Assembly: GCF_014268455.2 (NCBI RefSeq)
Contig: NZ_CP077085.1
Location: 5,745,001 to 5,809,000 of the forward strand
DNA from: Pseudomonas shahriarae
GTDB taxonomy: Bacteria > Pseudomonadota > Gammaproteobacteria > Pseudomonadales > Pseudomonadaceae
Length of the DNA: 64,000 bases
Direction: 5' to 3'
Shown here: in pieces, positions 187-4,781 of the stretch
Layout of the letters: each line of letters opens with the position of its first letter
How positions within the stretch are numbered: the stretch's first letter is position 1
Made by a program: the position numbers and the translations under genes
Notes under the pieces: generated by a model
What the model was told of the DNA's origin: nothing
Database searches by the model: none
Seen by the model: the letters and a program-made list of their open reading frames with translations, nothing else

Positions 187-720
187 ATGGGTAGAAGCCG
201 CTACGTCATCACCGAACCCGAAAAACCACACTTCCTGACATGTACCGTCATGGAGTGGCTACCACTGTTCACCCGTGACTACCTCGTCAGTCATCTTCTG
301 GATTGTTGGCGATATCAACAAAACCACCACGCCCTCAACCTTTATGGCTACGTCGTCCTGGAAAACCACCTGCACTTCGTCGCTCAGGCGCCTGACCTGA
401 GCAAATGCGTCAGCCAATTCAAATCCTTCACCGCTCGAACCATCATCGATGACCTGCACAGCAAAGGCGCTGAACGGGTATTACAACGTCTGCGCTTTTG
501 CAGACGTGCACACAAGGTAGATCGGGTGTATCAACTCTGGCAGGAAGGCTCACATGCCGAGCTGGTATACAGCGAGGCGGTGATGCGCCAGAAGCTTGAT
601 TACATCCACCACAACCCAGTGAAGCGGGGTTATGTGGACCTTGCTGAACACTGGAGGTACTCCAGTGCTCGCAACTATTTGGGCATGGAGGGGTTGATCG
701 ACATCCAGCGCTGGTCTTGA
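187..720 (+). CDS. REP-associated tyrosine transposase (RAYT, Y1/IS200-like)
   Basis: A 177-residue HUH-superfamily single-strand transposase. The metal-binding HxH is H61-L-H63 in the segment ENHLHF. The candidate nucleophile is Tyr139 in the family-typical stretch DYIHHNPVKRGYV. The start is supported by AAGGA eight bases upstream. Known RAYTs are domesticated, non-mobile relatives of IS200/IS605 transposases that bind and process REP hairpins; this one sits between REP palindromes on both sides, the usual 'REPtron' arrangement. No insertion-sequence ends or target duplications were seen. The length and both catalytic motifs look intact. Confidence 0.9.
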   Translation: MGRSRYVITEPEKPHFLTCTVMEWLPLFTRDYLVSHLLDCWRYQQNHHALNLYGYVVLENHLHFVAQAPDLSKCVSQFKSFTARTIIDDLHSKGAERVLQRLRFCRRAHKVDRVYQLWQEGSHAELVYSEAVMRQKLDYIHHNPVKRGYVDLAEHWRYSSARNYLGMEGLIDIQRWS

Positions 721-2227: not shown

Positions 2228-3523
2228 ATGGACGTCACCGCAACCTTGAGCTTGGGCGATCCGCTGGAACCCGCACGCAAGGCCACCGCGCAAATGCTGC
2301 AAGAGCGCGAGCGCACTTTTTCGCTGCCCCAGCCGTTTTACTCTGACCAGCGGCTGTTCGATATCGACATGCAGGAGATCTTCCAGAAGGAATGGTTGAT
2401 CGCCGGCATGACCTGCGAAATCCCGGCCAAGGGCAACTACCTGACCCTGCAGATCGGCAAGAACCCGATCATCGTGATTCGTGGCGCCGAAGGCGTGGTG
2501 CATGCCTTCCACAACGTCTGCCGCCATCGCGGCTCGCGCCTGTGCACCAGCGACAAGGGCAAGGTCGCCAAACTGGTGTGCCATTACCACCAGTGGACCT
2601 ACGAACTGGACGGGCGCCTGCTGTTCGCCGGCACCGAGATGGGCGCCGACTTCGACATGAAGCAGTACGGCCTCAAACCGGTGAACGTGAAGACCGCCGG
2701 CGGCTACATCTTTATCAGCCTGGCCGAGAACCCGCCGGCCATTGATGACTTTTTGTCGACGCTGAACCATTACATGGAACCCTACGACATGGAAAACACC
2801 AAGGTGGCGATCCAGACCACCTTGTTCGAAAAAGCCAACTGGAAACTGGTGCTGGAAAACAACCGCGAGTGCTACCACTGCAACGCCTCCCACCCCGAGT
2901 TGCTGAAAACCCTGCTGGAATGGGACGACGTCACCGACCCACGGGCTGACCAGGCGTTCAAGGACCACGTCGCCGCTTCAGCCGCCGCCTGGGACGCCGA
3001 GAAGATCCCTTACGCCCACGCCAGCTTCGGCCTGCGCAACCGCATCGTGCGCATGCCGCTGCTCAAGGGCACCGTGTCGATGACCCTGGATGGCAAGCAG
3101 GGCTGCAAGAAACTGATGGGCCGCATCAAGAACCCCGACCTCGGCTCGATGCGCATCCTGCACCTGCCGCACTCGTGGAACCACTGCATGGGCGATCACA
3201 TCATCGTCTTCACGGTATGGCCGATCAGCGCCCAGGAAACCATGGTCACCACCAAGTGGCTGGTGCACAAGGACGCTGTGGAAGGGGTGGACTACGACGT
3301 CGAGCGCATGCGCCAAGTGTGGGACGCGACCAACGACCAGGACCGGCGCCTGGCCGAGGAGAACCAGCGCGGGATCAACTCCACCGCTTACCAGCCGGGG
3401 CCGTACTCCAAGACCTATGAGTTTGGCGTGGTGAACTTTGTGGACTGGTACAGCGAGCGCATGCTGAACAACCTGGGGGCGGCACCGGCGCCGTACCTCA
3501 AAGGTGTCGCCGCACACGAGTAA
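2228..3523 (+). CDS. gbcA: glycine betaine monooxygenase, Rieske oxygenase subunit GbcA
   Basis: A 431-residue Rieske non-haem iron oxygenase that removes one methyl group from glycine betaine, yielding dimethylglycine and formaldehyde. The Rieske 2Fe-2S ligands are Cys98/His100 (VCRHRG) and Cys118/His121 (CHYHQW). Mononuclear iron ligands lie in the segment ECYHCNASHPE (His217, His222). The frame is open further upstream, but the ATG at 2228, preceded by TTGAGGA, starts the conserved MDxT N-terminus of the family. Divergent from gbcB; electron flow is GbcB to GbcA. Confidence 0.96.
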   Translation: MDVTATLSLGDPLEPARKATAQMLQERERTFSLPQPFYSDQRLFDIDMQEIFQKEWLIAGMTCEIPAKGNYLTLQIGKNPIIVIRGAEGVVHAFHNVCRHRGSRLCTSDKGKVAKLVCHYHQWTYELDGRLLFAGTEMGADFDMKQYGLKPVNVKTAGGYIFISLAENPPAIDDFLSTLNHYMEPYDMENTKVAIQTTLFEKANWKLVLENNRECYHCNASHPELLKTLLEWDDVTDPRADQAFKDHVAASAAAWDAEKIPYAHASFGLRNRIVRMPLLKGTVSMTLDGKQGCKKLMGRIKNPDLGSMRILHLPHSWNHCMGDHIIVFTVWPISAQETMVTTKWLVHKDAVEGVDYDVERMRQVWDATNDQDRRLAEENQRGINSTAYQPGPYSKTYEFGVVNFVDWYSERMLNNLGAAPAPYLKGVAAHE

Positions 3524-3542
3524 CTGACGCACCAGAGATCAA

Positions 3543-3572
3543 AAATGTGGGAGCAAGTCCGCTCCCACATTT
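3543..3572. terminator. REP-like hairpin after gbcA, possible terminator
   Basis: Perfect 12-bp stem (AAATGTGGGAGC/GCTCCCACATTT) with a six-base loop, 20 bp after the gbcA stop codon. The short T-run after the stem allows weak intrinsic termination. Its sequence is that of the genome's common palindromic repeat. Confidence 0.5.
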
Positions 3573-3650
3573 GGATACTCATCTGTTCATAAATTGACCA
3601 TCACCACTCCAGCCCGCTACTACCCTGCCCTCCAGCCATCGCCCAACAAC

Positions 3651-4205
3651 TTATCCACAAACCCACCCACAGCAATTGTGGGCAACTGCCCTGTTCCCTC
3701 AAAATAAAACCAAGAAAATCCGTGACTTATTCAAAGCAGCGGGTTTTATCCAACATTGATCAGTTTTTAACCAGAAGCTCACAAGCCACGTTCTATATGG
3801 CCTGCAGAGGAACGCAAACACCTTATCCACAGAAGCGCCAACAGACTTTGGGGGCAACTTTACCCCTTCTGTGGAAAACCGCCGGCAACCGAGCAAAATC
3901 GAGGCTTTACGCGCGTAGATCGGTTGAAACAGCGACATTGATCATTTTTCAACCAACTTACTACAAGCCTTTATCCCTATGGCTTACAGCGGATAGCGAA
4001 CATCTTATCCACAGAAGCACCAACAGACTTTGGGGGCAACTCTGAACCAGGCTATTTCCTTATCCACAGAAAAAGCCGAGCAAAAACCGTCGCTTAGGTT
4101 GGTTGTTTTTCGTACAGAGGGCTGCAGGGCTTGATTTCACTGGGGTGTGGACAACCGCGAACAGGTTATCCACAGGTGAACCAACAGGGATTGTGGGTAA
4201 CCCCC
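3651..4205 (+). repeat. DnaA-box tandem repeat array in a ~690-bp gene-free gap
   Basis: The gap 3524-4214 contains no credible gene. It holds five exact DnaA boxes (TTATCCACA) in one orientation at 3651, 3823, 4005, 4060 and 4166, and two one-mismatch boxes on the other strand at 3870-3878 and 4146-4154. Four of the exact boxes (not 4060) begin a degenerate repeat unit of about 161-182 bp. After each of those four come conserved segments CCAACAG and TG(T/G)GGGCAACT at fixed distance. GATC-plus-T-run 13-mers occur at 3758-3770 and 3940-3952, 182 bp apart. No dnaA, rpmH or gyrB is nearby, so this is not the classical oriC. A DnaA-titrating or DnaA-reactivating site is the most natural reading. 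Confidence 0.8.
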
Positions 4206-4214
4206 AGTCGAGGG

Positions 4215-4781
4215 CTACGGGTACTGCATCAAGTAAGCTTTGCCGGTGACACCTAGCATCGGGTGCGGGGTTATCTGGCAACTGTCGACAATCCGAAAGC
4301 CATGGCGCTCATAGAACCTCAGGGCACCGGTATTGGCCGCATAGTCAATCAGGCTCAAGCCGATAAGCCCAAGGTGCTCGGCCCGCTGTCGGGCATGGTC
4401 GAGAAATTGCACGCCCAAGCCTTGGCCGCGCCAACCTTCGTGCAGCGCCAGGCTGGAAATATAAAGGGTATCGGGGATCTCCAGGTCCGCGTAGGGAGCA
4501 AGGACTGGATCGGTAACCGGCTCTGCATCCGGATCATGGCGCATGACATAACTGTGCATCATGCCCACCACCACGCCCTCTGATTCGGCGATCAGGCAAT
4601 TTTCATAAGAGAAATCCACACCCGAGCGCGCATAACGGCTGGCGCCAACGTCCAGGAGTTCCTGGCCTGGCTCTGCGAGCTGGCTCCAGATGTAAGCCGC
4701 GGCTCCTTCTGAAGAGATCAGGAACAGACGCGCTATATCGCGGGCATCGGCGGGCACTGCCGCGCGGAATTTGACGGGCAT
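4215..4781 (-). CDS. GNAT-family N-acetyltransferase
   Basis: A 188-residue single-domain GNAT enzyme. The acetyl-CoA pyrophosphate-binding motif is GWRGQGLG in the central region, followed by the family C-terminal helix with ALRFYERHGF. The substrate cannot be read from sequence. The start at 4781 is preceded by AGGA at about ten bases. It follows etfB on the same strand after 98 bp and could be the last gene of that transcript, though the gap leaves room for its own promoter. The DnaA-box array lies just downstream. Confidence 0.85.
   Translation of the reverse strand: MPVKFRAAVPADARDIARLFLISSEGAAAYIWSQLAEPGQELLDVGASRYARSGVDFSYENCLIAESEGVVVGMMHSYVMRHDPDAEPVTDPVLAPYADLEIPDTLYISSLALHEGWRGQGLGVQFLDHARQRAEHLGLIGLSLIDYAANTGALRFYERHGFRIVDSCQITPHPMLGVTGKAYLMQYP

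Follow-up and report, generated by a model that had tools for sequence, protein, structure and literature searches.

Among described systems, the closest to the locus reported here are the DnaA-reactivating sequences DARS1 and DARS2 of E. coli, which, according to passages of PMC5742627, share a core of three DnaA boxes with equal spacing and with box I opposite in orientation to boxes II and III, and on which DnaA molecules at boxes I and II would meet head-to-head. Passages of PMC4245941 state that DARS2 needs IHF, and passages of PMC8682772 that Fis binds it ahead of initiation, to be displaced by ATP-DnaA; in the same parts of these two sources the conservation of DARS2 is placed among relatives of E. 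coli, and in part of PMC6090056 DARS-like sequences are reported from V. cholerae, at locations corresponding to those in E. coli. The E. coli locus datA also requires IHF, its boxes 7, 2 and 3 being arranged round one IHF site (passages of PMC5742627), and the DnaA-box clusters of B. subtilis (DBC) and S. coelicolor are described as titrating DnaA or repressing initiation (passages of PMC5010248 and PMC5742627). The present locus lies in a stretch of 64,000 nucleotides of the Pseudomonas shahriarae chromosome, hereafter the window. It is, in our judgement, rather probably an array of four DnaA-reactivating modules of DARS type in tandem, at which Fis-gated reactivation of ADP-DnaA would be the likely activity.

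Anatomy and setting of the array

The source chromosome consists of a single contig of 6,054,205 bp, in which dnaA is found at 210,570; since dnaA is 516 kb distant from the array, the locus is not oriC, as an earlier sequence-only reading of this DNA had already held. The array occupies a gap of 691 bp (3524-4214) without a credible gene, bounded by the converging ends of gbcA, with its stop at 3523, and of a gene for a GNAT-family acetyltransferase, with its stop at 4215, so that both gene ends point toward the array and the description of the stretch as free of genes holds. The GbcA protein is 100% identical to that of Pseudomonas gessardii, the best match among 80 named gbcA loci. Open reading frames within the gap are not credible as coding sequences because the spacings between cores (see below) differ by 1, 10 or 11 bp between species, and a reading as an RNA gene was rejected on an Rfam search of 3500-4300 that gave nothing at E values up to 1. 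One and the same scan found no sigma-70-like promoter within 3450-4300 and no terminator-like site at the array. Soon 3′ of gbcA lies a short inverted repeat, GTGGGAGC...GCTCCCAC (window 3541-3575), which was not called as a terminator and which resembles the REP sequences dispersed through Pseudomonas genomes. Elsewhere in the window (187-720) there is a REP-associated tyrosine transposase (NF047646.1, 92.6 bits, above the cut-off), flanked on both sides by inverted repeats as judged by eye.

Five exact DnaA boxes (TTATCCACA) are present, all on the forward strand (3651, 3823, 4005, 4060 and 4166), and four of them start repeat units with steps of 172, 182 and 161 bp; in these respects, and in the distance of 182 bp between two elements consisting of GATC plus a T-run, the sequence-only reading was accurate. 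It also listed two near-boxes on the reverse strand; such boxes do occur, but their number is three (3870, 4146 and 4192). Its motif CCAACAG at a fixed distance after the boxes is valid in general but not for the first unit, which has CCCACAG. Its description of the unit was incomplete, however: alignment of the units revealed, besides the strong box, two more fixed stretches, which we read as DnaA boxes II and I, and a Fis-consensus site is a further fixed part. Each unit has box III (+) at 0, box II (+) at +12 and box I (-) at +26, with box III strong and boxes II and I weak in the Pseudomonas units, and box I is opposed to boxes II and III in all four units of the window (Table 1). The GATC-plus-T-run 13-mers were considered as an unwinding element and rejected as such, as they fit the Fis consensus instead (GNNYANNNNNTRNNC, taken from a passage of PMC4585315). 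The extra exact box after core 3 has a counterpart in some of the related arrays only (20 such boxes in 64 arrays). Between Fis site and core, many modules carry an imperfect inverted repeat AAGCC...GGCTT followed by TG(C/T)AG, which is fairly conserved, and the triplet ACA is near-constant two bases before box III.

Table 1. Features of the array, its neighbours and two related loci (window positions, except for loci B and C, which are given on the source chromosome)
Feature	Position	Strand	Details
gbcA, glycine betaine monooxygenase oxygenase subunit	2228..3523	+	NCBIfam NF058607.1, 810.9 bits, above cut-off; neighbour, outside the element
Whole element	3585..4200	+	four tandem modules, each a Fis-consensus site plus a DARS-type tri-box core
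Fis-consensus site 1	3585..3599	.	0 mismatches to GNNYANNNNNTRNNC; starts 66 bp before core 1
Core 1	3651..3685	+	III 3651-3659 (+, TTATCCACA), II 3663-3671 (+, weak), I 3677-3685 (-, weak)
Fis-consensus site 2	3758..3772	.	0 mismatches; starts 65 bp before core 2; the earlier GATC-plus-T-run element
Core 2	3823..3857	+	III 3823-3831, II 3835-3843, I 3849-3857 (-)
Fis-consensus site 3	3940..3954	.	1 mismatch; starts 65 bp before core 3
Core 3	4005..4039	+	III 4005-4013, II 4017-4025, I 4031-4039 (-)
Extra exact DnaA box	4060..4068	+	55 bp after core 3
Possible Fis site 4	4101..4115	.	2 mismatches to GNNYANNNNNTRNNC; starts 65 bp before core 4
Core 4	4166..4200	+	III 4166-4174, II 4178-4186, I 4192-4200 (-, one mismatch, TTACCCACA)
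GNAT-family acetyltransferase gene	4215..4781	-	Pfam PF00583, above cut-off; neighbour, outside the element
Locus B, pair of DARS-type cores, 365 bp apart	795,054-795,453	-	L125:8055-8454; cores at 795,453 and 795,088
Locus C, single core	5,431,602-5,431,636	-	L134:2603-2637; Fis-consensus at -65, 1 mismatch

A genome-wide count of the exact box, which had been suggested as a check, gave 142 occurrences, compared with 25 for a reversed-pattern control. Density ranking and a Poisson estimate were based on 136 of these boxes, among which the array forms the densest 600 bp (5 boxes vs 4 at oriC); the probability that as large a cluster arises by chance is estimated at about 2e-8 per box, in keeping with the assertion that the density is far from chance. 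The remaining 6 boxes, placed later, comprise one pair and four singles, and no larger cluster. With 116 of the 136 first-placed boxes, and likewise the other six, no more than 1.2 Mb from oriC, 122 of the 142 exact boxes fall in the oriC-nearest 40% of the chromosome (0.21 Mb +/- 1.2 Mb). Crowding of DnaA boxes near oriC is also described for E. coli and Salmonella in part of PMC12371093. The array is confirmed as a real feature of this DNA.

Core geometry, conservation and regulatory sites

In the MG1655 regions analysed, the boxes of DARS1 start at 2108 (+), 2122 (-) and 2134 (-) and those of DARS2 at 3136 (+), 3150 (-) and 3162 (-), which corresponds to offsets of 14 and 12 in both cases. 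The Pseudomonas unit, read from the opposite strand, has identical offsets. The Pseudomonas pattern had been fixed before the E. coli regions were examined, and its top match in the DARS1 and DARS2 regions was in each case the DARS core (5 mismatches, the next match having 8), compared with a best match at 7 mismatches in the datA region. A 35-position matrix derived from 34 Pseudomonas units, with no E. coli sequence in its training, was scored on 400,000 positions in 200 kb of MG1655 (4%), chosen to hold oriC, datA, DARS1 and DARS2. It ranked DARS1 first (21.3 bits) and DARS2 second (16.9 bits), followed by a site outside these control loci (13.4 bits) and by datA (7.8 bits). With box III held fixed, the box II module scored best at the Pseudomonas offset in both DARS1 and DARS2 (rank 1 of 242), and box I ranked 2 and 5 of 242 in the E. 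coli cores. A local-mode covariance search (cmsearch) of the E. coli regions, which performed less well than the full-length matrix, placed DARS1 at the top but DARS2 only sixth: the DARS2 match was partial (7.2 bits), and individual boxes of datA, and others within the DARS2 region, scored higher.

The sequence-only reading had left three options for the array, namely a DARS-like locus, a datA-like locus or a DnaA-controlled promoter region. Because box order, orientation and spacing match DARS1 and DARS2 exactly, the first of these is supported. All three loci are non-coding and have the three-box core with box I opposed, but DARS1 and DARS2 have one core each as against four tandem cores in Pseudomonas; the exact box is box II in DARS1 and box III in Pseudomonas; and DARS1 and DARS2 lie in the bioD-uvrB and rppH-mutH gaps, respectively, whereas the Pseudomonas neighbours are gbcA and the GNAT gene. 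The mutH-region neighbours of DARS2 were not found at the array. Both E. coli loci are farther from oriC than the Pseudomonas array. As in the array, a Fis-consensus match flanks the DARS2 core on the side of box III, but at -125 instead of -65/-66, and DARS2 has IHF-like matches at -87 and -71, whereas in Pseudomonas an IHF site (WATCAANNNNTTR, one mismatch allowed) has no fixed place, the best position being occupied in 7 of 56 arrays. DARS1, taken as its core with about 50 bp of flank, differs in that its nearest exact Fis match is at -243, whereas the flank in Pseudomonas carries the Fis consensus. By geometry the cores appear to be of DARS type, but their context and regulatory sites set them apart from both DARS1 and DARS2.

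The second option fares less well. Like the array, datA is a non-coding cluster of DnaA boxes near oriC, and the oriC-proximal position of the array would suit it, but its box geometry is another one (7.8 bits vs 21.3 and 16.9 bits for the two DARS cores), and it needs IHF, for which the array has no fixed site; nor does the array have the datA layout of boxes 7, 2 and 3 round one IHF site. The array resembles the B. subtilis and S. coelicolor clusters, those of B. subtilis acting near oriC, in that it is a cluster of DnaA boxes outside yet close to oriC, as is typical of titration clusters of the DBC kind; it differs from them in its tri-box cores with Fis sites, which are not described for these clusters in the passages of PMC5010248 and PMC5742627 that deal with them.

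Conservation of the box spacing across Pseudomonas, the second check suggested earlier, was evident both at gbcA loci and among genomes of the genus. At least three exact boxes are present downstream of gbcA in 63 of the 80 named gbcA loci, and in the resulting 64 arrays, window included, the steps between exact boxes are 149-150, 158-161, 171-172 and 181-183 bp, not counting steps above 190 bp, in which the intervening box is altered. A triple-box array pattern occurs in 173 of 398 genus genomes, one copy each, and a one-unit pattern with up to 3 mismatches in 310 of 398; the reversed control gave 0 for the former, and the control for the latter was 0 in all genomes. Places within individual genomes were inspected among the matches listed. 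The array is conserved as an element in the genus, with boxes and spacing kept. Of the 80 gbcA loci, 17 have no boxes within reach, but in five of these (L057, L065, L073, L079 and L082) the array apparently lies 7-9 kb further on. Because of these five loci, and because only 10 of the 80 loci yielded a relative of the GNAT gene while the array is retained, the array is not bound to any particular neighbouring gene.

Sequence variation was analysed in the 56 of the 64 arrays that have a four-core chain, the other 8 having none. Box III is invariant across these arrays, and boxes II and I vary no more than third positions of gbcA (0.22) and less than most spacers, in a comparison that is biased by the selection of the loci through the boxes themselves. 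Mapping of core-to-core lengths by parsimony on the gbcA tree of the 56 four-core loci, which is shallow, yielded 26 inferred length changes, 15 of 1 bp and 11 of 10-12 bp, with none between; chain building admitted no steps outside 140-195 bp, a limit that applies to this analysis as well. For the 11 longer changes, a Rayleigh test against a 10.5-bp period, which is a rough test, gave p of about 6e-5. Since spacing changes amount to 1 bp or to about one turn, the cores seem to be kept on the same face of the helix.

The Fis-consensus sites likewise have a fixed place. In the same 56 arrays, which were also used for the IHF analysis, the AT-centred form of the Fis consensus (up to one mismatch) is found at -65/-66 in 50, 56, 56 and 29 arrays for cores 1 to 4, respectively, and a looser consensus in 50, 55, 55 and 55, the mean being 0.1-0.6 matches per position. 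The consensus (up to one mismatch) is also present at -65/-66 in 18 of 18 cores from other clades of the genus (6 perfect), in 30 of the 35 distinct cores that represent other genera of the family (8 perfect) and, at class level, in 19 of 26 cores (12 perfect; mean 0.37 per position), the last sample being drawn from 25 other genomes, one of them in the same family. Its presence in other genera and in the class suggests that the fixed place of the Fis site is not due only to shared ancestry of one locus. The consensus also peaks at -9, where it overlaps the border of box III, in 24 of 35 other-genera, 7 of 18 other-clade and 6 of 26 class cores; this second peak may stem from the letters of box III, and because of it consensus peaks alone are no proof of Fis binding.

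Chromosomal position and competing explanations

Eight tri-box matches were found in the source genome, four in the array, two at locus B, one at locus C (5,431,636, -) and one at 3,378,554 (+). Locus B sits between genes for a LivF-like ABC transporter and a YdfG-like SDR (both below NCBIfam cut-offs), has an exact box and a near-box between its two cores, and shows the Fis consensus at -65 before both (0 and 1 mismatch); locus C is flanked by genes for a histone-deacetylase-family protein and an HI0933-like flavoprotein. The site at 3,378,554 is a single match with 2 mismatches, far from oriC, and near-identical sequences are found in several related genomes among the matches listed. In 25 complete genomes, out of 30 tabulated and 36 searched, the distance between the array and dnaA is 458-563 kb (median 524), with the array always on the strand of dnaA (25/25). 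Locus B was found in 21 of the 25, at 585-749 kb in 20 and at 1,669 kb in one, and in all 21 on the opposite arm and the opposite strand. The five tabulated genomes left out of this summary belong to other clades: in G190 (-388 kb) and G287 (-437 kb) the array fits and is on the strand of dnaA, with no locus B found, G192 fits an origin-centred inversion, and G015 and G383 have no simple fit. Gene order near oriC is shared across Pseudomonas, so that positional conservation in part reflects it and is weaker evidence than it may seem.

The reading of the region as four tandem DARS-type modules draws on the observed anatomy, the DARS-core geometry, conservation, the position of the Fis consensus, the helical spacing and the partner locus; from these we infer that DnaA and Fis bind, and that ADP is released, at the array. 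A Fis dimer would bind the predicted site 65-66 bp before each core, DnaA would occupy the strong box III plus the weak boxes II and I, and boxes I and II would bring DnaA molecules head-to-head, upon which ADP would leave. By analogy with DARS1 and DARS2, ADP-DnaA assembled in this manner would drop its ADP and reload ATP. The initiation potential would rise when Fis is bound, and the four helically phased modules may work as one large complex. As Fis is bound to DARS2 before initiation and is then displaced by ATP-DnaA, it could gate the Pseudomonas modules in a DARS2-like way. Against the DARS reading stand the lack of a fixed IHF site, the consensus peak at -9, the partial match of 7.2 bits to DARS2, the exact box being III as compared to II in DARS1, and the oriC-proximal place of the array. 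This last point is the main doubt. In E. coli, DARS1 moved very close to oriC raises origin concentration and initiation, according to part of PMC5010248.

Location favours the main rival explanation, an oriC-proximal DnaA sink, which would bind DnaA soon after fork passage, cut free DnaA or ATP-DnaA and block re-initiation. The array, about 0.52 Mb from oriC, replicates early, where E. coli keeps its datA, and could for this reason be such a sink; locus B on the other arm, the five exact boxes with weak ones in addition, and the genome-wide crowding of boxes round oriC all agree with it, as does the report, in part of PMC5010248, that datA and the B. subtilis clusters near oriC work less well at terC. 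Nevertheless, mere titration needs neither the exact tri-box geometry nor a Fis site at fixed distance, datA scores low on the unit matrix, and datA needs IHF whereas the array has no fixed IHF site. We regard a sink as unlikely on balance, while still deserving serious attention.

A role as an architectural site for Fis and DnaA, organising the chromosome near the origin and affecting replication only secondarily, appears improbable: helical phasing over about 0.5 kb and the opposed orientation on the two arms would agree with such a role, but locus B of the source genome has only two cores, and we know of no structural system with the geometry of the DARS core. DnaA does act as a transcription factor elsewhere (part of PMC8203912), but control of a neighbouring gene, the third option of the earlier reading, is highly unlikely here since the genes on either side converge on the array, the scan detected no promoter-like site, and neighbours vary among species that retain the array. 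A neutral tandem repeat, or the remnant of a replicon or mobile element, can be dismissed with similar assurance, for the array of degenerate repeats of 160-182 bp, which suggests it, occurs once in each of the 173 genomes with a match and contains a box III invariant in 56 arrays and boxes II and I no more variable than gbcA third positions (in a biased sample), a conservation that contradicts neutrality.

Related modules beyond the genus

The tri-box core (up to 2 mismatches) was found in 305 of 398 family genomes, representing 12 of 19 genera, and in 26 of 370 class genomes, two of these in the family, with 0 matches for the reversed control in both searches. The class-level figure is a lower bound because the pattern was derived from Pseudomonas. 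Many of the class-level cores have three near-perfect boxes, and among those with named neighbours, three lie next to priA, two next to proS and one next to rapA. The priA gene encodes a replication restart helicase. In three class-level genomes (L246, L247 and L248), the core lies directly before priA and has a Fis-consensus match at -65 or -66.

It is tempting to combine the array, its partner and the class-level cores into a joint reading, offered tentatively and with rather less confidence than the DARS reading itself, in which an IHF-independent module of Fis site and tri-box DARS core is common to Gammaproteobacteria and has been amplified in Pseudomonas into a paired, oriC-proximal, Fis-gated switch. 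If so, a Fis site fixed 65-66 bp from a tri-box core would represent a compact shared module, of which Pseudomonas would have a four-core phased array and an opposed partner on the other arm; the switch would couple growth phase to DnaA recharging, and would be a putative stand-in for the E. coli controls exerted by datA, SeqA and IHF-timed DARS2.

In the open-licence literature, no report of DARS or datA in Pseudomonas was found among the matches listed in titles and abstract openings, and the Pseudomonas passages of PMC10218098, PMC5397419 and PMC6090056 make no link to DARS. Within the parts of this literature consulted, we likewise found no description of replication timing in Pseudomonas from sites outside oriC, and its record contained no earlier instance of a tandem form of DARS-type cores. 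If the modules are of DARS type, DnaA recharging would reach well beyond E. coli and Vibrio and would be possible without a placed IHF site, and both copy number and position would have evolved. The array points to a control region for replication timing about half a megabase from the Pseudomonas origin, and being compact, confined to one place, predicted to base level and touching no gene, it is well delimited. One further genome of the genus has, among the matches listed, five tri-box matches about 257 bp apart (G559:C13:591386-592449), separate from its array on C18.
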